DNA from: Deltaproteobacteria bacterium
Lineage (GTDB): Bacteria > Desulfobacterota > Desulfuromonadia > Geobacterales > Pseudopelobacteraceae
Assembly: GCA_021781535.1 (NCBI GenBank)
Contig: JAJXWO010000013.1
Location: 1 to 64,000 of the forward strand
Reading direction: 5' to 3'
DNA: 64,000 nucleotides
Position 1 is the first letter of the stretch, and each line of letters opens with the position of its first letter. The notes below the pieces were generated by a model. The model did not search any database, had not been told where the DNA came from, and worked only from the letters and a program-made list of their open reading frames with translations. Shown here in pieces: positions 31,249-46,212 of the stretch. The position numbers and the translations under genes are program-made.

Positions 31249-31716
31249 ATGCCGCAATTCTTTGAAGGTAAGCTTGAAGCTAAAGGACAGAAGTTTGGTA
31301 TTGTCGTCAGTCGTTTCAACAGCTTTATCTGTGAACGTCTGCTGGAGGGGGCAGTTGATGCGCTGATCCGCCACGGTGTTGACGATAAAAACATTCATGT
31401 TGCACGTGTTCCGGGTGCTTTCGAGATTCCGCTCTTTGCTAAAAAAATGGCGGAATCAGGCACATATGATGCGCTGATTTGCCTCGGCGCCGTTATTCGC
31501 GGTTCTACGCCGCATTTTGATTATGTTGCCTCTGAAGTTTCCAAAGGGGTGGCGAGCGTTTCTCTGGAAAGCGGCGTTCCGATCGCCTTTGGTGTTCTGA
31601 CGACCGATACGATCGAGCAAGCGGTGGAACGCGCCGGCACCAAGGCGGGCAACAAGGGGTTTGAAGCGGCAGTTACCGCCATTGAATCCGTCAATCTTCT
31701 GAAGGTGCTCAAATAA
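31249..31716 (+). CDS. ribH: 6,7-dimethyl-8-ribityllumazine synthase
   Basis: The 155-residue protein has [46 protein letters not shown] and [18 protein letters not shown], covering the active-site residues of lumazine synthase. It condenses a pyrimidinedione with a four-carbon phosphate in riboflavin synthesis and usually forms icosahedral shells. GGGAGG precedes the ATG. Its stop overlaps the nusB start (TAATG), a ribH-nusB pairing common in bacteria. Confidence 0.96.
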
Positions 31717-36708: not shown

Positions 36709-36774
36709 GTTGACCCGTTGTGAGTATATCGGCTATAAGCATAAACCTGTTTTATAAATCAAAGGAGGTTGAAT

Positions 36775-37779
36775 ATGCATCTTGTTGACCAGATCAAAGA
36801 GAAGGCCAGAAAGAACCTGCAGACGGTGGTGTTACCGGAAAGTTATGACGAGCGGATGCTGTTTGCCGCAGAGAAAATAGTTTCGGAAGGGTTGGCCAGG
36901 ATTGTTGTTCTCGGAGATCCGGCCACGATTCAAGCTGAAGCTGCTGCAAAGGGGATCAATCTTGCCGGTGTGGAACTGCTCCACCCGGCGTCATCTCCCA
37001 AGCTGGGGCAGTACGTGGCCGATCTGGTCGAGCTGCGCAAGAGCAAGGGGTTGACCGCTGATGAAGCCAGGACGCTCCTTACCGCCGCCGACAACCTCTA
37101 CTATGCCGGCATGATGGTGCGTAACGGCGACGCCGGCGGTGAAGTTGCCGGTGCCACCGGTACTACCGGCAACGTCCTCAAGGCCGCTTTCCAGACCGTC
37201 GGCCCGGCCGCCGGCATCAAAACGGTTTCGTCCTTCTTTCTGATGATCACCAAAAACCCCGGTTTTGGCGAGAACGGCATCATTCTCTTTGCCGACTGTG
37301 CAGTTAACCCCAACCCTGATGCCCAGGCGCTGGCAGAAATCGCCGTGGCGACAGCCGGAAACTGCACAGCGTTTCTTGATGTGGAAGCCCGCGTTGCCAT
37401 GCTCTCGTTCTCCACCAAGGGGAGCGCCAGTCACCCCGACTGCGACAAGGTTTTGAAAGCATTGGAAATAGCCAGGCAGATCAAGCCGGATATGCAGATT
37501 GACGGTGAATTGCAGGCCGATGCGGCTCTTCTCCCGAATGTCGGGAGTAAAAAGGCCCCCGGCAGCAGTGTGGCGGGCAAGGCAAATGTCCTGATTTTCC
37601 CCGATCTGGACGCCGGTAACATCGCCTACAAACTGGTGGAGCGTGTCGCCGGTGCCGAAGCGGTCGGCCCGATTATTCAAGGCCTGGCAAAGCCGGTTAA
37701 CGACCTCTCGCGCGGTTGTTCGGTGGAGGATATCGTCAATGTCACCGCCATCACGGCGGTGCAGGCGGCACAGAGGTAG
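36775..37779 (+). CDS. pta: Phosphate acetyltransferase
   Basis: ATG 36775 has AAAGGAGG six bases upstream; a TTG at 36769 in the same frame is inside the spacing and not used. The 334-residue protein is the short Pta class: VVLPESYDERMLFAAEKI, GMMVRNGDAGGEVAGA, ILFADCAVNPNPDAQAL, SFSTKGSASHPD and VLIFPDLDAGNIAYKL. It interconverts acetyl-CoA and acetyl phosphate. No ackA is next to it in the window. It has its own terminators on both sides. Confidence 0.94.
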   Translation: MHLVDQIKEKARKNLQTVVLPESYDERMLFAAEKIVSEGLARIVVLGDPATIQAEAAAKGINLAGVELLHPASSPKLGQYVADLVELRKSKGLTADEARTLLTAADNLYYAGMMVRNGDAGGEVAGATGTTGNVLKAAFQTVGPAAGIKTVSSFFLMITKNPGFGENGIILFADCAVNPNPDAQALAEIAVATAGNCTAFLDVEARVAMLSFSTKGSASHPDCDKVLKALEIARQIKPDMQIDGELQADAALLPNVGSKKAPGSSVAGKANVLIFPDLDAGNIAYKLVERVAGAEAVGPIIQGLAKPVNDLSRGCSVEDIVNVTAITAVQAAQR

Positions 37780-37813
37780 TTTTTTCGCTACGCTGCAAAG
37801 TCTGAGCGTACAA

Positions 37814-37849
37814 AGGGCGCATCCTCACCGGGATGCGCCCTCTATTTTT
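37814..37849 (+). terminator. Rho-independent terminator after pta
   Basis: Perfect 11-bp GC-rich arms (AGGGCGCATCC, 37814-37824, with 37831-37841), a 6-nt loop and a CTATTTTT tail. It ends pta transcription. Confidence 0.88.
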
Positions 37850-37900
37850 GACCGTCATTTTGTATGATTCGATGCTACATAGCCCGTAACAGTCTTGAAA

Positions 37901-37954
37901 AAAGGAGAGAGGCTATTTCACATATTCGTTACTGAAAAATAGCCTCTCTCCTTT
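37901..37954 (-). terminator. Long perfect stem-loop at the distal end of the cassette region
   Basis: Perfect 18-bp arms (AAAGGAGAGAGGCTATTT, 37901-37918, and complement, 37937-37954) flank an 18-nt loop. Read leftward the stem ends in a TTTTTT run, which fits a terminator for the toxin gene that stops at 37977. It also marks the boundary between core DNA (pta) and the cassette array. Confidence 0.7.
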
Positions 37955-37976
37955 AGGTATCTTAGTTAATTATTTA

Positions 37977-38276
37977 CTAATCACCTGATTCGTTTAGTCG
38001 CAATAGCCGGTGCCCTTCAAAAACAGTAAGTAATTCAATTCGATCATCATTCAATCGGTAGACAATGCGATATCCTCGGTAAATAAGCTCTCGAATATCA
38101 GGATTACCTATTTCTGGCACACTCCTTCCGCTTCTTGGATTGTCAGTCAAAATTGCTTCAGTGTGGTCAATGAGGGCATCAACAAACCGAACAGCGCGCT
38201 CTACACTGTCACGTGCAATAAACTCCTCTATATTAACCAGATTTTCACCGGACTCCTGTGACCATGTTACGCTCAT
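37977..38276 (-). CDS. RelE/ParE-family toxin
   Basis: The 99-residue protein shows the RelE/ParE fold: N-terminal helices (LVNIEEFIARDSVERAVRFVDALIDH), then IRELIYRGYRIVYRLNDDRIELLTVFEGHR, the strand region with basic residues usual in this family. It is either an mRNA interferase or a gyrase poison; sequence alone does not decide. It overlaps the antitoxin by 4 bp and is the most distal gene of the array. Confidence 0.88.
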   Translation of the reverse strand: MSVTWSQESGENLVNIEEFIARDSVERAVRFVDALIDHTEAILTDNPRSGRSVPEIGNPDIRELIYRGYRIVYRLNDDRIELLTVFEGHRLLRLNESGD

Positions 38277-38563
38277 GGATTACCCACACTTCTTCGGGCT
38301 CGCAGGGCTTCTCGTAGTTCGTCTGTAGTTTGGATACGCCCGTTTTCAACGTCTGCAATCCCCTTCTCAACAGAATCAAGAAAAGATTTTCGGTAAACCA
38401 ATTCATCGTAATCCAAAGCTGACAACAGTACACCAGCTGGTTTGCTATTTTGGGTAATGATAAGCGGATGTCTGGATGTCTGAAGTGTTTTGAACCACTT
38501 GGAAATATTGGTTTTAAATTCTGCAATTGGAACAATGTCATTACTGACTGAAATAGCTCTCAT
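38273..38563 (-). CDS. Phd/YefM-family antitoxin
   Basis: The 96-residue protein has the Phd/YefM N-terminal DNA-binding fold (IVPIAEFKTNISKWFKTLQ, PLIITQNSKPAGVLLSALDYDEL) and a helical C-terminal toxin-binding tail. It neutralises the toxin encoded next to it and probably represses the pair through the inverted repeat upstream. GGAGG lies upstream of the ATG at 38563. Confidence 0.88.
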   Translation of the reverse strand: MRAISVSNDIVPIAEFKTNISKWFKTLQTSRHPLIITQNSKPAGVLLSALDYDELVYRKSFLDSVEKGIADVENGRIQTTDELREALRARRSVGNP

Positions 38564-38593
38564 TGTTTTACCTCCTTGATATAAATCTCTTTA

Positions 38594-38611
38594 TGGTCAA
38601 AATATAGACCA
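38594..38611. promoter_or_regulatory. Inverted repeat upstream of the antitoxin gene, possible operator
   Basis: TGGTC (38594-38598) and GACCA (38607-38611) flank an AT-rich 8-bp centre, 31 bp upstream of the antitoxin start. Position and symmetry fit an autorepression site of a toxin-antitoxin operon. Confidence 0.5.
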
Positions 38612-38645
38612 ATAAATTGATCAACGCAAGTGCTCGGTTCATGTT

Positions 38646-38716
38646 CGCCCAACGGGGCTGCGCTTGACCTGCCGGGCGTCTTTATGCCCGGTCATGGTCT
38701 GAGCGCGTGTTGGGTG
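38646..38716 (-). other. attC recombination site (site 1)
   Basis: In the minus orientation the site opens ACCCAAC (fits RYYYAAC) and closes GTTGGGC (fits GTTRRRY). Internal arms pair imperfectly (GCGCT...AGCGC, TGACC...GGTC, CCGGGC...GCCCGG) around a short centre, as in attC folded on one strand. It is 71 bp long and overlaps the 3' end of the membrane-protein gene, whose stop lies inside it, a common cassette arrangement. Confidence 0.8.
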
Positions 38717-39372
38717 TTGTCTTTTTTTATCGGTGATAGTACTCCGACAAGCAAGCTTATTACCGCTATCCCAGCCCACGTCCAAAATACGATTGGAAGC
38801 CCTTTGCCAATCTCTTGCCACTGTTGTGTTGTTGTAGATTTGATATTCTTGAATTCGATATCTTCTTTGGTGGGGACATAGCGAGTCTGTTCACCGGCTT
38901 CAGTTAAGTAACTGACAATCGCTCCTTCATATAAATACTTATCGCGAGCATACATCTTTGACAGTTTTATTCTTGAAATCGCAGGTAAATCGCTTCTCTT
39001 CATCATGGCTTCCATCTTGCCGAAATTCGGCCTTTGAATTTCTTCTAAATTTCTGCCAACTTTTTTGTACATTTGAACAGATAATAATGGGATGGCACAC
39101 AGGCAAAGGCCTACAAGCAACATGGCTATGCCCATAAAGCTTGGCCATGTGCGGCGCATTTTCCTTATTCCGGTGGTAATAAGGCTGACTATTAAAAGGA
39201 GGGAACCGACCGTCTGCAATGAATTTGATAAAAAAATCTGAAGCTGAAACCTTCCATCGGCACCGACCTTTTCGAGGTTCCAGAAAGCTGTAATTGCTTC
39301 TGCGATCAAGATCATTGCGAGTGCAACAATAATTAGTCGCTCTCCACTTACTTTTGGTAATTTGATGCTCAT
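38692..39372 (-). CDS. Cassette-encoded membrane protein of unknown function
   Basis: The 226-residue protein has four likely membrane segments: LIIVALAMILIAEAITAFW, TVGSLLLIVSLITTGI, FMGIAMLLVGLCLCAIPLL and the C-terminal IVFWTWAGIAVISLLVGVL. Between segments three and four lies a soluble part of about 75 residues, with the last residues again cytoplasmic and basic. No recognised domain. Its 3' end runs into attC site 1, marking it as a gene cassette. Confidence 0.68.
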   Translation of the reverse strand: MSIKLPKVSGERLIIVALAMILIAEAITAFWNLEKVGADGRFQLQIFLSNSLQTVGSLLLIVSLITTGIRKMRRTWPSFMGIAMLLVGLCLCAIPLLSVQMYKKVGRNLEEIQRPNFGKMEAMMKRSDLPAISRIKLSKMYARDKYLYEGAIVSYLTEAGEQTRYVPTKEDIEFKNIKSTTTQQWQEIGKGLPIVFWTWAGIAVISLLVGVLSPIKKDNTQHALRP

Positions 39373-39392
39373 TTTTTCAATTCCATTTTATT

Positions 39393-39411
39393 CACCCAAC
39401 TCGTTATTGGG
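39393..39411. other. Possible attC remnant
   Basis: In the minus orientation GTTGGGTG (fits GTTRRRY plus one base) pairs over five bases with CCCAA across a short centre. It lies just upstream of the membrane-protein gene start, where the preceding cassette's site should end, but no matching distal half is found within 110 bp. Confidence 0.3.
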
Positions 39412-39499
39412 AGCCTTGTCTAGTCACAATATATTTTTATCACTTTATGTTGTAACATTTAATATTGACGGAACGTTTTTTTGTTGTTACGTTAAATCT

Positions 39500-39772
39500 A
39501 TGATCATTGAGTTCGATACTGCGAAAAGAGAAAAGACCCTGTTGGAGCGTGGTCTTGATTTTGCTGATTCCGACAAGGTTTTTGACGGACTTCACTTTAT
39601 CGCTCGCGATGATCGTTCTGATTACGGCGAGGAGCGCTTTTTCACAGTTGGGCTATTGAATAGCCGAATGGTTGTGATTGTCTGGACTCCGAGAAACGAC
39701 GCCCGCCGAATTATTTCTATGAGGTACGCTAATGACCGCGAAATCAGCCGTTACAAAAAACACCTTGGTTGA
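39500..39772 (+). CDS. brnT: BrnT-family toxin
   Basis: ATG 39500 gives 90 residues starting IIEFDTAKREKTLLERGLDF, with DYGEERFFTVGLLNSRMVVIVW and RRIISMRYANDREISRY, all BrnT hallmarks. BrnT is a RelE-fold ribonuclease. The gene runs opposite to the other cassette genes. No clear ribosome site is seen before the start. It overlaps brnA by 41 bp. Confidence 0.92.
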   Translation: MIIEFDTAKREKTLLERGLDFADSDKVFDGLHFIARDDRSDYGEERFFTVGLLNSRMVVIVWTPRNDARRIISMRYANDREISRYKKHLG

Positions 39773-40004
39773 TCCGGATGACGCTCCGGAACTGACCGAT
39801 GCTTGGTTTGAAAAAGCTGACCTTATGCAAGGCTCCAAGCTTGTCCGTCGGGGCCGTCCGACTGGCCAGACCAAGGCTTCGCAAACCGTCCGTTTTGATT
39901 TGGACGTCTTGGCGGCCTTCAAGGCCACGGGTAAAGGGTGGCAGACCCGCATGAACGAGGCACTTCGGGAATGGATTAAGGAACATCCGATGAAGCATGC
40001 CTGA
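39732..40004 (+). CDS. brnA: BrnA-family antitoxin
   Basis: The 90-residue protein has the acidic N-terminal part (DPDDAPELTDAWFEKADL), the linker RRGRPTGQTKA and a ribbon-helix-helix end (TVRFDLDVLAAFKATGKGWQTRMNEALREWI) typical of BrnA. It sequesters BrnT and autoregulates the pair. Its stop codon falls inside an 8-bp inverted repeat. Confidence 0.92.
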   Translation: MTAKSAVTKNTLVDPDDAPELTDAWFEKADLMQGSKLVRRGRPTGQTKASQTVRFDLDVLAAFKATGKGWQTRMNEALREWIKEHPMKHA

Positions 40005-40020
40005 CCCTCAGAGGTCAGGC
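39999..40020. repeat. Inverted repeat over the brnA stop codon, possible degenerate attC core
   Basis: GCCTGACC (39999-40006) and GGTCAGGC (40013-40020) flank six bases. The TGACC box is shared with the inner arms of the four attC sites in this array, but the outer GTTRRRY/RYYYAAC boxes are missing. It could be a terminator without a T run or a decayed attC. Confidence 0.4.
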
Positions 40021-40056
40021 CAAAAGCTCTACAGTATTCCTTCTCTGACCTTCCAA

Positions 40057-40281
40057 TCATTTTTTGAAGAGCCTATTTGCAATGCCGAAATATCCGATGC
40101 ACACCAAGATTACTGAAATTGTGAATATCGACAGTTTATTCTGGATTCCAAAGGCAAGCCCAATAGCGACTATTCCTATGAATCCAAAGAATAAAGCCAC
40201 TCCAGCCTTATTAGCTTCTCTTTTGGATATTGTCGCCCCGCTGAAACAGGCCTTGTAATCATCTTTATCTGAATTTTTCAT
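40057..40281 (-). CDS. Small cassette-encoded membrane protein
   Basis: ATG 40281 (74 residues) begins just after attC site 2; an earlier ATG at 40305 would lie inside that site. A charged N-terminus (KNSDKDDYK) leads to two membrane helices (GVALFFGFIGIVAIGLAFGI and IFTISVILVCIGYFGIANRL). No family recognised. Such tiny two-helix proteins are frequent among integron cassettes. Confidence 0.65.
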   Translation of the reverse strand: MKNSDKDDYKACFSGATISKREANKAGVALFFGFIGIVAIGLAFGIQNKLSIFTISVILVCIGYFGIANRLFKK

Positions 40282-40293
40282 TTTTCTGCCTTT

Positions 40294-40350
40294 GACCAAC
40301 GCCATAAGCCTGACCGGCGGTATTTTGGCCGGTCTTGGCGCTAGTTGGAC
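40294..40350 (-). other. attC recombination site (site 2)
   Basis: Read leftward it opens GTCCAAC (RYYYAAC) and closes GTTGGTC (GTTRRRY), with inner arms GCCAAG/CTTGGC-like and GACCGGCC/GGCCGGTC-like pairing around an eight-base centre. At 57 bp it is of minimal attC length. It lies 3' of the lipoprotein cassette and directly before the small membrane protein gene. Confidence 0.85.
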
Positions 40351-40404
40351 ATTGTTCTTTCTCGCTAAGTTGCTTAACTCACAAGTATTCCTCAGGTCTT
40401 TTGT

Positions 40405-40447
40405 AAAACTCCGTGAAGCCTTGGAATAAAAGGCGTCACGGAGTTTT
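40405..40447. terminator. Bidirectional terminator-like hairpin 3' of the lipoprotein gene
   Basis: Perfect 12-bp arms (AAAACTCCGTGA, 40405-40416, with 40436-40447) enclose a 19-nt loop that contains a nested GCCTT/AAGGC pair. Both directions end in a short T tract. It lies between the lipoprotein stop and attC site 2. Confidence 0.72.
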
Positions 40448-40490
40448 TGTTAGTTTAAATTTTCCTGTGTCAAGGGTTGATCATTCGGGG

Positions 40491-41315
40491 TCAATCTTTT
40501 TCTCTGCTCTTTTCAAGAGCTTCGAACTCTTTTCCATCACGACGAAAAACAGTATCCTCTAGTTTATCCTCTATAATTTTGTATACTATTTTCTCATTGC
40601 TGGATTCAATAACTGCGATTTTAAAGTCTTTAAACCTTATTTCTTTTGCGCTGGTTTCGTATACTAGGTTCTGAAAAAATGAAGGCCTAGCGAGATCGTT
40701 CCAAGTATATTCACGATAAGTCATTGAGATAGTGACGTTGTTAATTCCGCCATAGAGTAATTCAAAATTATTATCCCCCACCCAATAATGGTCATCAGAT
40801 TCATAACAGGGTGCTATTTTGTTAGTCACTATCATTGTGGTGTTTGCTGGGGTTAATACTGCATTGTTTAAGTCATACATACTGCTACTGTCATGGTTGT
40901 CATCGTAAATAGTTTTTACAACAATTTTGCCTTCGTTATTAACCATCAGTCCGTATGTATTGCCATTATCATCATCTATATCAAAAATTGAATATTCGAC
41001 ACCATTTATTTTGGTCTTGTCGCTTAAAGAAAATGATTTTTTATTGGAACCCTTTATGCTGAGATTTCGGTTAAATAATTTTTTATTGTATGAGCCTGTA
41101 ATAGTAAAATCGTTTGACGGGTTTGCGTAAAAGCACTTATTATTACCGTCCTTGTTAACCTCTCGATATATGTCTCTTATTTTTATAACTGGTTGCCCAA
41201 TATAGGCTGTTTCAATTTCCCCTACCGTGTAGCTTTTTATAAATGAGTGTTGTACCATCCCTTTTGAACAGCCGGACAAAGCCAGTACTATAATGATCCC
41301 AAGAACTTTTTTCAT
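40491..41315 (-). CDS. Cassette-encoded lipoprotein of unknown function
   Basis: ATG 41315, after GGGGG, gives 274 residues with a clear lipoprotein signal (KKVLGIIIVLALSGC, lipobox LSGC). The longer open frame would start inside attC site 3. The mature protein is polar, rich in Asn, Asp, Lys and Tyr, with no recognised domain; it has beta-rich stretches such as GVEYSIFDIDDDNGNTYGL and NVTISMTYREYTW. The AT-rich base composition differs from flanking core genes, a sign of transfer. Confidence 0.68.
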   Translation of the reverse strand: MKKVLGIIIVLALSGCSKGMVQHSFIKSYTVGEIETAYIGQPVIKIRDIYREVNKDGNNKCFYANPSNDFTITGSYNKKLFNRNLSIKGSNKKSFSLSDKTKINGVEYSIFDIDDDNGNTYGLMVNNEGKIVVKTIYDDNHDSSSMYDLNNAVLTPANTTMIVTNKIAPCYESDDHYWVGDNNFELLYGGINNVTISMTYREYTWNDLARPSFFQNLVYETSAKEIRFKDFKIAVIESSNEKIVYKIIEDKLEDTVFRRDGKEFEALEKSREKD

Positions 41316-41354
41316 ATTGCCCCCGTTAAATTTGTGCTTTGTAAAATTGTATTC

Positions 41355-41427
41355 GATCAACGGCTCGCGCAGTTGACCCGTTCGGGCAGCCTTTCCGCCC
41401 GACCGGTGTCCAACTGCCTGGTTGGGA
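41355..41427 (-). other. attC recombination site (site 3)
   Basis: Read leftward it opens TCCCAAC (one mismatch to RYYYAAC) and closes GTTGATC (fits GTTRRRY). Inner arms pair GTTGGACACC-like with GTTGACC-like segments and a CGGGCGG/CCGAACGGG-type core. It is 73 bp long, 38 bp after the stop of the unknown 217-residue gene. CAACGGCTC at its low end recurs in site 4. Confidence 0.8.
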
Positions 41428-41465
41428 ATCGTATTCAAATTATTTCACTTTCAAGGGCTGACCCC

Positions 41466-42119
41466 TCATTTGCTCATTAGATCTATCATACAAAATCCGA
41501 TGGCAGTCGGCTTGCAGATATCTTCTCCAATTGAGTTCTGACTGAATGCTAGTCCCGCGTTACAGAGTGATTGGCTGTCTTCGCTGTTCAGAAAGTCTTG
41601 GAACCGTATTCGCCGTTCAGAGGATTTCGGTGCTTGCTCGTACGACTTCATACTCTCATAGTACGTTTGTAATTTTGTCAGATCGGTAATCAAGGCACGA
41701 TCAATGGTCGCAGCCAATCGCAAAAACATATCATAGTCGATACTTCCGCTTAAATAAGCCGCGAAGCTTTTCCCCAATATAAATGCCTTTTCTAGATTGT
41801 CTTGTCGATCCAATAGAAGGATGAGATTTTCACCAACGTTCTGACAGAAGGATAAATCGGATAACTTGTCCACGAACTCTTCTTTGAGGCGACTTTCAAC
41901 AGTTGCACCTTGTAGAAACATTGCAATTTTTTTTAGGAATATGCGATCCTTTACAGTGCTGACCACACGATATCCTTTTATTAACCACCCAAAAACTGGG
42001 ATGTCCTTTAATACTCCTTCATTCAACATATCATCAAGCGCTAGCTCTGATACTTCTCCAGCAATTTCCGCAGCACCTGCTGAAAAGATTGACTTCACTA
42101 AAGAAGTTCCAATATTCAT
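41466..42119 (-). CDS. Cassette-encoded soluble protein of unknown function
   Basis: The 217-residue protein has an AAGGAG site before ATG 42119. The N-terminal half includes an amphipathic stretch (VFGWLIKGYRVVSTVKDRIFLKKIAMFLQG) that could be membrane-associated, followed by helical segments and a Ser/Glu-rich linker. The last 25 residues (GEDICKPTAIGFCMIDLM) contain paired Cys. I recognise no domain. It is flanked by attC sites 3 and 4, so it is a complete single-gene cassette. Confidence 0.68.
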   Translation of the reverse strand: MNIGTSLVKSIFSAGAAEIAGEVSELALDDMLNEGVLKDIPVFGWLIKGYRVVSTVKDRIFLKKIAMFLQGATVESRLKEEFVDKLSDLSFCQNVGENLILLLDRQDNLEKAFILGKSFAAYLSGSIDYDMFLRLAATIDRALITDLTKLQTYYESMKSYEQAPKSSERRIRFQDFLNSEDSQSLCNAGLAFSQNSIGEDICKPTAIGFCMIDLMSK

Positions 42120-42193
42120 CTTTGGCTCCTTTTACCGCTTTGACATCCAGGAAGCCGACGTAGAATTCGCACCAACTTTATTCGCCGCTGTTT

Positions 42194-42261
42194 TGCCAAC
42201 GGCTCAGCCGGTGACCCGACGCAGGTCCATCACGGTCGGGGGTTCACTGGTCTAGTTGGGA
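42194..42261 (-). other. attC recombination site (site 4)
   Basis: Read leftward it opens TCCCAAC and closes GTTGGCA, each with one or two departures from consensus. Inner boxes CCGACCG/CGGGTCAC-like pair imperfectly around a short centre. Both ends share sequence with site 3 (GTTGGGAATC and CAACGGCTC). It is 68 bp long and lies 55 bp 3' of the PKD/propeller gene. Confidence 0.72.
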
Positions 42262-42316
42262 ATCCGTTTTTGACTTTCCACTTTCAAGGTCAGACCAGTC
42301 CTGGGGCACTACCACG

Positions 42317-44296
42317 CTATCGTTTTGTGGAGATTGACACGGGCATTCTCCCCGTAGCGAACGTACCAATGCTGGTTAGCGCACCAGTAGTAGCGTTAAT
42401 ACTGTAAGCAGAAACAGTACCAGATCCGCCGTTTGCATTATAATTTGTCACATAGACGAACTTCCCGCTGGGGTCGATTGCGATGGAGCCAGATTGGCTC
42501 CCTGCTGCAAATGTACCAATGTTGGCCAGGGCACCTGTAGTGGTATCAATAGCAAAAGCAGATACGTTGCCGATTGTGGCACCGTTGAATGTGTCAGCGC
42601 CACGATTTACTACGTAAGCAAACTTACCGAGAGGGTCAACCACAACGGACTGCGGGCCGGTTCCCGTAGCAAAAGAACCAATGCTGGTTAGCGCACCAGT
42701 AGTAGCGTTAATACTGTAGGCGGAAACGGTATCAATTGAGTAATTCACCACATAAGCAAATTTCCCGCTGGGGTCAATATTGATAGGTTTATAAATGCTA
42801 CCTCCAACAACTGAGCTAATGTTGGTGAGTGAACCGGTTGTGGCGTCAAGTGTGTAGGTTGAAATTACTGTTGAAACGCCATTATATATTGCCAAATAAG
42901 CGAACCTGCCGCTGGGATCAAAAGTGATGGGACCAGGATACTTTCCAGCAGCGAACGTACCAATGCTGGTGAGCGTACCGGAAGTTGCGTCAACGCTGTA
43001 TGCGGAGCCGTAATTGGAATTCATATTCGCTGCAAAGGCGAACTTACCAGTAGGGTCAAATGTAACAGAAAAAGGACTATTTCCCGCAGCCACCGTAGCT
43101 GTGCTGGTTAGAGCGCCAGTGTTGGCGTCAATAGAGAATATATCGATGTTGTTGCCATTCCAATTAGGAACATAGGCAAACTTGCCAGATGGGTCAACTG
43201 TGAGAGATTCTGGAAGTGGATTGGAACTAAAATTGGTATTCGTAGCAAAAGCACCAATTCCAGTTAGCACGCCAGTAGTAGCATTAATGCCGTAGGCAGA
43301 TACGTTATTACCACCATAATTCACAACATAGGCGTAGCCGACCAAAGAATCTTTGACTGTAATCGTGATCGTTGCAACTGCACTGTTCGCTTTCCCATCA
43401 TTGACTACCAAGTTCAGAACATAGGCACCTGCAACGTCGGCTGTGAATGTTGGTTTGGCAACGCTTGCACTTGACAGAGCCGCGCTACTTCCCGCTGGTT
43501 TAGAAGTGAATGCCCAGCTATAGGTCAGTAGGTCACCATTCGCGTCACTGCTGGCGCTGCCGTCGAGCGTGACACCCGCGCCTGTAACAACACTTTGAGC
43601 TGCTCCAGCATTTGCCACAGGGGCTGCATTGGCAACAGAGGCGGTTATTGTAACGGTGACTGCAGCACTGTTTAATTTCCCGTCATTAACTACCAAGTTT
43701 AAAGCATAGGCACCTGCAACGTCGGCTGTAAATGCCGGTTTGACGACAGTTGCACTTGACAGAGCCGCATTACTTCCCGCAGGTTTAGAGGTGAAATCCC
43801 AGCTGTAGGTCAGCGGGTCGCCATTCGCATCACTGCTGGCGCTACCGTCGAGCGTGACAACCGCACCAGTGACAACACTCTGGGCTGCTCCAGCATTTGC
43901 CACAGGGGCTGCATTGGCAACAGAGGCGGTTATTGTAACTGAGGCCTCTGAGGTTACAGATTTTGTATCGGAGATTACCAATTTGAGAGAATACTGACCC
44001 GATAAATCTGGGATAAAAGTTGGATTTACTGTCGTTGTGTTAATAATTGTGGCGGCACTTCCGACCGGTTTAGTGGTCATGCTCCATTGATATGTGATTA
44101 GGCTCCCGTCAGCTCCGGTGCTCTGAGATCCATCCAATGTAACAAGGCTGCCAGCTAAAACGTTTTGTGCAGGGCCAGCGTTAGCCGTAGTTATTTTGTT
44201 ATTTGGGGCGTTACTACTGCTTCCACCACAGCCCGCCATTCCAAACACCACAGCCACAAATAATCCCATCATCACTCTGATTACATTCCATCTCAT
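42317..44296 (-). CDS. Cassette-encoded lipoprotein with PKD-like repeats and a beta-propeller
   Basis: The 659-residue protein follows AGGAGG and has a lipoprotein signal (lipobox MAGC, then GGSSS). Three tandem Ig-like/PKD modules cover about residues 35-315; the second and third are nearly identical (each with PVANAGAAQSVVTGA, DGSASSDANGD, YSWxFTSKPAGS). The rest is a seven-bladed propeller of lactonase/YVTN type built from units with FAYVVNY, VSAYxINATTGALTSIGTF and VDPSGKFAY. It is likely a surface or periplasmic binding protein. The internal near-identity implies recent duplication. At almost 2 kb it is large for a cassette. Confidence 0.82.
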   Translation of the reverse strand: MRWNVIRVMMGLFVAVVFGMAGCGGSSSNAPNNKITTANAGPAQNVLAGSLVTLDGSQSTGADGSLITYQWSMTTKPVGSAATIINTTTVNPTFIPDLSGQYSLKLVISDTKSVTSEASVTITASVANAAPVANAGAAQSVVTGAVVTLDGSASSDANGDPLTYSWDFTSKPAGSNAALSSATVVKPAFTADVAGAYALNLVVNDGKLNSAAVTVTITASVANAAPVANAGAAQSVVTGAGVTLDGSASSDANGDLLTYSWAFTSKPAGSSAALSSASVAKPTFTADVAGAYVLNLVVNDGKANSAVATITITVKDSLVGYAYVVNYGGNNVSAYGINATTGVLTGIGAFATNTNFSSNPLPESLTVDPSGKFAYVPNWNGNNIDIFSIDANTGALTSTATVAAGNSPFSVTFDPTGKFAFAANMNSNYGSAYSVDATSGTLTSIGTFAAGKYPGPITFDPSGRFAYLAIYNGVSTVISTYTLDATTGSLTNISSVVGGSIYKPINIDPSGKFAYVVNYSIDTVSAYSINATTGALTSIGSFATGTGPQSVVVDPLGKFAYVVNRGADTFNGATIGNVSAFAIDTTTGALANIGTFAAGSQSGSIAIDPSGKFVYVTNYNANGGSGTVSAYSINATTGALTSIGTFATGRMPVSISTKR

Positions 44297-44394
44297 GTTT
44301 CAATCCTCCTGATGTTTGCTCCGAGGTATACCGTTTCACTCCACGACGGAGCCTTTGTCTTGGTGTTCAACTCGTAAATCACCGGTTAGTGTCG

Positions 44395-44521
44395 GCATCT
44401 AATATTATATGCTGGCATCTAATGTTGTATGCCGGTATCCAATATTAGATGCAAGTGAAGTATCTAATATTGGATGCTTTAACTCGTTTTATTCTTCATC
44501 GAAGCATCAAATATTATATGC
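44395..44521. repeat. Five 18-bp near-palindromic repeats
   Basis: Copies at 44395-44412, 44415-44432, 44435-44452, 44460-44477 and 44504-44521 approximate the perfect palindrome GCATCTAATATTAGATGC with one to four changes each. The first three are spaced exactly 20 bp start to start. The last copy lies in the coding sequence of the adjacent small gene; the rest are just 3' of it. Spacing and lack of cas genes exclude CRISPR. Role unknown. Confidence 0.88.
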
Positions 44522-44844
44522 TTTTCCAGATCTGTACCTTTTATCTTTTCGTGCTGGATGTACCATAGTCTTACTTCAGGATCCCATCGACCACCCATTT
44601 TTTTTGCCATTTCTTTCAGTGCTGTTTCACTATACGCAATCTGAACCGGTACTAAGGTTAAGTCACTGACATTCACCTGAACAGGTGACAATTCCTTTCT
44701 TTCAACGATAAGCTCTACCGTCTTAATCCGGGTACGACATGCCTCATCATACCTGTAGCGCACACAGACAAGGGCGTCACCATACTTTTCAACCAGAGCT
44801 TTAGTTCCTTTCTGGCCCGGTTTCAGTTTAAGACGTGCGATCAC
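44479..44844 (-). CDS. Small protein with DUF5710-like C-terminus, linked to repeats
   Basis: The 121-residue protein starts with GTG at 44844 after GGAG. The first half is basic (IARLKLKPGQKGTKALVEKYGD, VCVRYRYDEACRTRIKTVELIV) and the second holds ETALKEMAKKMGGRWDPE and VRLWYIQHEKI, resembling the DUF5710 motif in which Gly-x-Arg-Trp-Asp is followed by Trp-Tyr. That domain is found in proteins handling nucleic acid. The gene lies between the integrase and the first clear cassette, and its 3' end carries the palindromic repeats, so protein and repeats may belong together. That link is inference. Confidence 0.68.
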   Translation of the reverse strand: MIARLKLKPGQKGTKALVEKYGDALVCVRYRYDEACRTRIKTVELIVERKELSPVQVNVSDLTLVPVQIAYSETALKEMAKKMGGRWDPEVRLWYIQHEKIKGTDLEKHIIFDASMKNKTS

Positions 44845-45014
44845 TTTTTACTCCAATTGGTAGTCAGCAGTTTACTCCGTATAATTCTGCGGCAATGTAG
44901 CACGCACATTTGTTAGCAACAATTAAAAAAACCACTACTTCAAAATATCCCATCAGTGTTTATTATGTTTTTGCTTGAATTAATGCCCACTGTTCAATAG
45001 CATGACTTGAAATC
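44845..45014. other. Integrase leader region, expected location of attI
   Basis: This AT-rich 170-bp stretch lies between the divergent integrase and the first array gene, where attI and the cassette promoter normally sit. A TTGTTAGCAACAA near-palindrome (44910-44922) is the only symmetric candidate for an integrase-binding site. I could not identify attI with confidence. Confidence 0.35.
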
Positions 45015-45788
45015 ATGAGAGGTGCCAGCCATATGATTCATATCGCAAATTCAGTTTTTGTTGAGTATGAAGTTGCCCTTAATAAGGGCGGGATTCCTTC
45101 TTCACTTTATGCCGATTACAAAAAGTGGCTGCGATATTATCTCGATTTCTGCGTCAAACATGTGACGACCAGCGATAGGTCAGAACGCAAACAACAGTTT
45201 TTAAAGAAGTTGGGAGAAAAGAAACAAAATAATGAACAGATAAAACAGGCATCGCATGCTGTTTCGCTTTACTTTGATATGCAAAGGCAGGAGGAAACGC
45301 AGAAAAAACCTACCGAAGAGCCATCCTCTCAAGAAAGTTCAGCAACATTGCCAAATCAGGCAACTTTTGAGTCGACCCTGTCTCGATCAACGGTATGGCC
45401 CCCAACTTTTAACTTGCGCCAATCGCAATATCTCGTGGCCGGATACCAAGATAAATCCTGCTCTCCAGAGTGGGATGCACTCATCAGCAAGCTGGCCGAT
45501 GAGATAAAGGTTCGTCACTATTCCCGCAAGACGTTGAAAACCTATGCTCACTGGTCGCGTCAGTTTCAGCGTTTCTTGAAAAACAAATCTCCGCAGGAGC
45601 TATCAACTGCTGACGTAAAGGAATATCTGACGTACCTGGCAGTCAAGTGCAAGGTTGCCGCAACGACCCAAAACCAGGCCTTCAATTCGCTCCTGTTTCT
45701 CTTTCGCCATGCAACGACCATGATCTACACCCATTGCGTGCCGGTCAGGACAGTAAAGGAAGCAAAAAGCCCGCTGGATCTTGATTAG
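45015..45788 (+). pseudogene. intI: Integron-type tyrosine recombinase with deleted catalytic core
   Basis: The open frame gives 257 residues (an ATG at 45033 is an alternative start). An N-terminal extension (SSLYADYKKWLRYYLDFC, KQASHAVSLYFDM) and a SAM-like core-binding domain (KVRHYSRKTLKTYAHWSRQF, ADVKEYLTYLAV, TTQNQAFNSLLFLFRH) match integron integrases of the long type. Directly after FLFRH the sequence jumps to ATTMIYTHC and ends KSPLDLD, which is the extreme C-terminus of IntI with the nucleophile Tyr. The box I Arg and the HxxR region, about 170-190 residues expected here, are missing. The junction is near 45708-45716 and keeps the frame. Recombination activity is therefore not expected. 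Confidence 0.82.
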
Positions 45789-45807
45789 TGAATCTGCTGT
45801 CCGGTGT

Positions 45808-46212
45808 TCACAGATCCCCGGTCATCTCCTGCAGCAGGTATAACTTGACGTTAACCTTCCGTACGCACTCCACGACCTCTTTCAGCCGCTCTTCATCAAG
45901 TCCGCACTCTTCATCAATCCCCTGAAACCATGGATAACCTTTAGGAAGCGGTGTCAGGGAGCCGTCCCGAAGCAGCATGACATCCACCAGGTCGTTGACC
46001 CGCCCTGTGGCCTCCCACGGATCACGATAATTGAACTGCCGGGCGACGACGTGCATTCCCATGCCGTTGGAAAAGAGGGCCTTCACTTCAAATGAAAACT
46101 CGCGCGGAGCGCTGTAACTGTCGCTCCGTCCGGAGCGGACCATGACATCGGCGCCTGCCTCTTTCAGGATCTCCCCGACTGATTCGGCGGTCATTGCCGT
46201 ATATGTTTCCAC
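45808..46212 (-). CDS. Small protein of unknown function paired with MoxR/VWA genes
   Basis: I take GTG 46212, one base after the VWA stop and six bases after GGAGG, giving 134 residues; an ATG at 46260 would overlap the VWA gene. The protein is mixed alpha/beta, with TAESVGEILKEAGADVMVRSG, FSFEVKALFSNGMGMHVV and DEERLKEVVECVRKVNVKLYLL. No known domain. Tight linkage suggests it is a substrate or adaptor of the ATPase/VWA pair. Confidence 0.68.
   Translation of the reverse strand: METYTAMTAESVGEILKEAGADVMVRSGRSDSYSAPREFSFEVKALFSNGMGMHVVARQFNYRDPWEATGRVNDLVDVMLLRDGSLTPLPKGYPWFQGIDEECGLDEERLKEVVECVRKVNVKLYLLQEMTGDL

Follow-up and report, generated by a model that had tools for sequence, protein, structure and literature searches.

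What is an integron integrase gene that has kept both its ends and its reading frame and has no catalytic core: the dead remnant of a recombinase, or a short DNA-binding protein maintained in its own right? This question is raised by a gene located at 45015-45788 on the forward strand of a 64,000-nt stretch of a Geobacterales genome (contig JAJXWO010000013.1, positions 1 to 64,000, hereafter the window), which a sequence-only reading had described as an integrase reduced to its DNA-binding half. In this work, we mapped the deletion, compared the gene and its chromosomal site among relatives, and weighed the possible explanations. Taken together, our results favor a decay reading, in which the gene is what is left of a long-type chromosomal IntI, is catalytically dead, and represents one point in a decay series; we assign this reading a probability of about 0.85.

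The open reading frame (ORF) displays no internal stops and encodes 257 residues from the ATG at 45015; nevertheless, Met 45033 seems the likelier start (45033-45788, forward strand, 251 aa), since homologues start at the matching residue and GAGAGGTG is found just upstream. Compared with the intact 464-aa relative P0002, the ORF matches residues 1-228 and 442-464 in a single frame, and this match, together with that to PF13495, upholds the identification of a long-type integron integrase with an in-frame loss of its core. The mapping was resolved to the base by DNA alignment to three intact genes (L008, L009 and L010), in which the match breaks off at 45712 and picks up at 45713, with 639 nt (213 codons) missing relative to each of them, somewhat more than the 170-190 codons estimated earlier. 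Microhomology was looked for at the junction and not seen, the join being CATGC followed by AACGACC. The deleted part comprises the GCGLR, HTFRHSF and LGH segments; motif comparison with the intact relatives indicates that the box I Arg and HxxR, as had been noticed, and then LGH are lost, while the Tyr motif TTMIYTHC stays within a retained C-terminal tail (TTMIYTHC to KSPLDLD, including the nucleophile Tyr and followed by the stop; 45714-45788, forward strand). Functional IntI proteins use a catalytic set constituted by Arg, HxxR, His and Tyr, and this set is incomplete in the window ORF, in which the Tyr motif alone is left. The IntI-specific additional domain, which we take to be the stretch between the catalytic boxes that lies inside the deleted 213 codons, is gone from the ORF and present in the intact relatives. 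Consistently, the only Pfam domain detected in the 257-aa ORF was the SAM-like core-binding domain (PF13495, residues 156-233, 45465-45713, forward strand, E 8.5e-28), and the integron-integrase model TIGR02249 covered residues 157-232 only (E 1e-20), with a score of 74.3 versus a cut-off of 265.

An assembly artefact might be suspected, as the source assembly is fragmented (133 contigs) and carries 8.87% contamination. However, the junction has no repeat for an assembler to collapse, the frame is kept, the flank continues the gene order of the relatives, and a comparable deletion (G094) sits in a one-contig genome; we thus regard an artefact as highly improbable. When a 141-nt junction query was compared with 138 genomes of the order, 61 matched and the join was spanned only by the window's own genome, so that the short allele had no other carrier in this set; a search of viral contigs for the exact junction gave no match either.

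The 251-257 aa ORF is 24-26% smaller than the 337-position integron integrase model NF011946, whose length is presumably that of IntI1. In a 2008 survey, close to a third of the intI genes were scored as pseudogenes, a category that took in major deletions and any product smaller than IntI1 by 20% or more (Nemergut et al., 2008, PMC2426708); by that definition (frameshift, stop, or a product at least 20% smaller than IntI1), the window ORF counts as an intI pseudogene. Like the pseudogenes described in that survey, it is an inactivated integrase with an adjoining cassette array; unlike those carrying a stop or a frameshift, its loss is a single in-frame internal deletion. A second study showed that an active intI1 imposes a cost on Acinetobacter baylyi, in which it is quickly lost by frameshift (PMC3510236), and the window fits both reports. 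The survey also describes a deltaproteobacterial clade 15 whose IntI are about 120 aa longer than others by a single fusion (PMC2426708). Judged by its similar extension length and its host group, the window integrase probably belongs to this family; unlike the clade-15 proteins as presented there, it has its core deleted, and its extension is interpreted in this work as a core-binding-like domain. Among the matches listed from the open-access literature, none described a natural core-deleted IntI, as judged by titles and the openings of abstracts.

The retained part was modeled with AlphaFold2, which predicted two four-helix domains with a low-confidence linker and tail (mean pLDDT 80.7, pTM 0.48). 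The first predicted domain lies in the N-terminal extension and resembles a core-binding (SAM-like) domain (45048-45305, forward strand; helices 12-24, 29-49, 55-68 and 73-97), and the second is the core-binding domain itself (helices 151-166, 171-187, 198-211 and 216-233). With the extension folded alone, VIA-align ranked the core-binding domains of VchIntIA, XerA and archaeal Xer at the top (Z 9.1-9.5), including residues 2-85 of VchIntIA in PDB 2a3v (Z 9.5, 79 aligned, 2.7 A), versus Z 5.6-7.1 for lambda integrase and Cre, all within the range below about 13 that is not decisive for helical bundles. PF13495 was detected at E<=0.1 in the extension of 28 of the 30 family members (best 1.1e-10), and the window extension alone reached 20 bits, below Pfam's cut-off of 27. 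Other searches with the extension gave less: Foldseek returned no match at E<=0.001, a PDB-sequence profile search listed 2a3v at E 0.78 only, ranked under unrelated chains, and profile-profile comparison with the core-binding domain yielded a probability of 12%. On balance, the N-terminal extension of the long-type IntI (45033-45323 and its relatives) is very probably a second core-binding-like domain, so that two would stand in tandem, which would give structural meaning to the fusion of about 120 aa reported in PMC2426708. The core-binding domain proper is similar to that of VchIntIA/IntI4 (PDB 2a3v; 39% identity over 75 columns, Foldseek E 1.2e-3), a protein from which the window product differs in having no catalytic domain and a second core-binding-like domain.

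The integrase is located at the end of a chromosomal integron block of approximately 8 kb (about 37780-45808), in which most genes are on the opposite strand. Its neighbors are a phosphate acetyltransferase-type (pta-like) gene (36769-37779) on one side and, on the other, a 150-residue ORF and then a DUF2201/VWA gene. With up to one mismatch allowed, a strict attC pattern (RYYYAAC/GTTRRRY) picked out 38647-38715 only; a looser scan of the whole window for folded hairpins bounded by CAAC/GTTG, with branched structures left out, gave 46 candidate pairs, and the four strongest single-stem hairpins were all inside the block. These attC-like sites correspond to 42194-42261 (site 1, constrained fold, the weakest of the four, unconstrained z -0.99), 41355-41427 (site 2, constrained and unconstrained folds), 40294-40350 (site 3, constrained fold, the unconstrained one taking in only part) and 38647-38715 (site 4, strict pattern and constrained fold). 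They score on both strands, so the scan leaves their orientation unfixed, and the margin is small (-10.9 for site 1 versus -9.0 for the next hairpin, at 31316-31382). Thus, the adjacent attC array expected of an integron integrase is represented by four attC-like hairpins, as detected by folding.

Among the genes of the array, that at 42317-44296 (reverse strand) encodes a 659-aa protein with PKD and lactonase-type beta-propeller domains, and two cassette genes on the same strand, at 41466-42119 (217 aa) and 40491-41315 (274 aa), displayed no Pfam matches at E<=0.01. We also observed two toxin-antitoxin pairs: BrnT toxin and BrnA antitoxin genes within the array (39500-40004, forward strand), and, at the block end away from the integrase, a Phd/ParE-like pair consisting of a Phd/YefM antitoxin gene and a ParE toxin gene (37977-38563, reverse strand). 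Toxin-antitoxin pairs are common in chromosomal integrons. Next to the integrase there is a DUF5710-like gene (scoring at Pfam's cut-off), which partly overlaps five 19-nt repeats forming inverted repeats, the gene and repeats occupying 44395-44522 and 44479-44844. In L008 and L010, sequence resembling this region likewise lies upstream of the integrase; in G029 (L207), visual inspection suggests a similar gene with a different repeat.

The proposal that the deletion froze the array is consistent with these data: the array adjoins a protein that would be unable to recombine it, because the catalytic residues are missing. The 639-nt deletion took out most of the catalytic domain, with the two core-binding-like domains and the last 23 codons remaining in frame, and we propose that the integron's own integrase lost the ability to recombine the array. 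This event may be fairly recent, since the gene has no further lesions, and the loss might have been tolerated or even favored if an active integrase is costly, as was shown for intI1 in Acinetobacter baylyi (PMC3510236).

The same chromosomal site was then compared among relatives, using as anchor the DUF2201/VWA gene, which was detected in 32 more genomes of this genus; 30 were used (G001 and G002 being left out), with adjoining stretches of 1.8 to 10.6 kb from each. The full-length gene was sought at this site, and within these stretches none of the 30 relatives carried an intact long-type integrase (0 of 31 loci including the window). Instead, remnants of different extent were found: G029 has a gene with another in-frame deletion (P0002 residue 229 joined to 413), and G027 a 5'-truncated, frame-broken copy with a 76-nt insertion; in G013 two integrase scraps survive, and in G022 and G034 the end of the gene is all that remains (32 residues and, by blastn, 28 nt, respectively). 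In 10 of the 30 relatives the site is empty, without the integron block and with the flanks 5-109 nt apart; the flanks are 460-2855 nt apart in 8, G034 included, and the left flank is absent from the stretch examined in the remaining 12. Separately, the site of G033 (L215 1585-2506) holds a 920-nt insert that appears to encode a MazEF-type toxin-antitoxin pair.

Deletions of this gene were also surveyed across the order. A search with P0002 in 141 genomes gave, among the matches listed, 44 that cover at least 430 of the 464 residues without a stop, and a profile built from 56 full-length integrase genes was used to find internal deletions at 206 loci, which were taken from the search listings rather than from every genome, with duplicate genes counted once. 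Defining a large deletion as the loss of at least 80 HMM positions, 18 were identified including that of the window, every one with a different join: 11 in frame (window, G029, G121, G088, G010, G009, G068, G120, G056, G095 and G094) and 7 out of frame (G086, G133, G062, G051, G028, G079 and G074). The out-of-frame set includes G062, with 83 extra nt at the join, and the ambiguous G074, in which a 9-bit piece in frame is followed by a frameshift; among the in-frame cases, the join of G009 carries 18 additional nt, a contig end truncates G088, and G010 and G095 show upstream decay. Left out of the count were three deletions of smaller size (in frame in G082 and G079, out of frame in G027:C71), linker length variants (L100 and L195), insertion cases (three copies of an S23 gene, G027:C37, L124 and L125) and single-ended loci (L073/L120, L170, L172, L173, L184, L190, L193, L194, L205 and others). 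A class-wide search beyond the order returned, among the matches listed, mostly short-type or divergent integrases, which were kept out of the count as well.

The share of 11 in 18 is nominally unusual against an expectation of one third (p=0.014). However, in the 56 intact genes the two copies of a 4-8 nt direct repeat lie in the same phase in 41-51% of cases, and against this null of 0.41-0.51, which presumes repeat-mediated deletion and to which the repeat-free window junction does not itself conform, p rises to 0.07-0.27. Adding the three smaller deletions gives 13 of 21 in frame (p=0.007 versus 1/3; 0.04-0.22 versus 0.41-0.51). Short repeats and their phase bias can therefore accommodate the in-frame share, so that the apparent bias is weakened rather than fully explained. 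The argument that an in-frame loss leaving both ends intact is unlike random decay thus finds no support, given the recurrence of large deletions with differing joins, the phase of the repeats, and the graded remnants at a site that is intact in none of the 31 loci.

With respect to selection, the retained core-binding domain is as constrained as between intact genes, with an omega of about 0.06. Over 98 core-binding codons, the window and G029 differ by 17 synonymous nucleotide differences and 4 replacements (omega 0.057), the comparison with the intact gene of G016 gives 0.073, and the two intact-intact pairs computed give 0.021 and 0.078. The synonymous divergence between the window and G029 is 0.39 in this domain versus 0.13-0.21 in three flanking genes, and consequently much of the constraint may predate the deletion or may have come with recombined sequence. 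In the tree of the short core-binding region, the window joins the intact G016 gene (support 0.94), not G029. A recent deletion with recombination upstream fits these data best, and such a deletion explains the constraint equally well as a retained product.

A variant history within the decay reading is that an older core deletion in the common ancestor of the window and G029 was passed on to both, that the window then lost a further 75 nt in frame, and that the short ORF has lasted ever since that ancestor. The left breaks of both genes coincide to within 3 nt at the same chromosomal site, and on either side of the junction the window is 98% (63 nt to the left) and 100% (78 nt to the right) identical to G029. 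This history nevertheless still calls for another deletion that begins where the first one was joined and is at odds with the placement of the core-binding region with G016; we consider it a tentative possibility, on the unlikely side. The common left break may reflect shared ancestry plus a second deletion, or coincidence.

Several observations speak against decay: the ORF is fully open, omega is 0.057, each of the 11 in-frame derivatives keeps an open frame as far as the native stop (reaching the profile N-terminus in 8), the in-frame share departs nominally from one third, and decay does not account for the left break common with G029. A rival reading is a retained DNA-binding derivative, in which the tandem core-binding-like domains and the tail would attach to attI/attC or enter IntI multimers and thereby prevent recombination, as a natural dominant negative; both helical domains are predicted at high confidence, and the existence of further in-frame derivatives and the low omega of the core-binding domain are in line with it. 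Conversely, the join is unique to one of 138 genomes, no intact long-type integrase that it could antagonize was found in its own assembly (94.9% complete), and the constraint may be older than the deletion, as indicated by the excess synonymous divergence. Moreover, although some in-frame derivatives retain the core-binding domain, the parts kept vary, and the set has no common binding module, since five (G009, G010, G056, G068 and G094) have lost all or nearly all of that domain. We therefore consider a retained binder improbable, and slightly more so the broader proposal that in-frame core-deleted integrases constitute a recurrent mini-IntI class of Geobacterales, with tandem core-binding domains and an IntI tail, occupying attI/attC or poisoning IntI multimers, with the effect of stabilizing arrays. 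For a functional mini-integrase, which is possible, the positive evidence amounts to the open frame and a constraint that can predate the deletion.

Under the preferred reading, a decaying remnant, the locus provides a base-level example of a chromosomal integron losing its engine, and one site in one genus displays the steps: in-frame core deletion, truncation, scraps and empty site. Should the short proteins act, they would constitute a natural brake on cassette shuffling, which is not indicated here; the picture is rather one of ordinary gene decay that leaves a small collection of genes stranded than of a new kind of protein.

Two further observations were made on integrases of the order. 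In three genomes, a 23S_rRNA_IVP gene (S23, PF05635) replaces the catalytic core of a long-type integrase: L006 2583-2936 (contig C102 of the window's own genome) and L135 279-629, both recognized by Pfam, and L121 1661-1972, which includes a run of N. All three start after the same integrase codon (profile position 229, TQNQAF/AL) and are bounded by TGAAGACTGAAGG-like inverted repeats, with the integrase restarting at profile position 419 in two genomes and 459 in the third; this looks like one insertion with loss of neighboring integrase sequence, extended in one genome. The element was considered as the cause of the window deletion and dropped, its left end being about 10 codons off. Finally, in many genomes (e.g., G091:C63, G131:C1 and G081:C6) there are short matches confined to the final 60-75 nt of the integrase gene, in some cases without a longer integrase match there among the matches listed, and these isolated matches may be leftover 3' ends of lost integrases.
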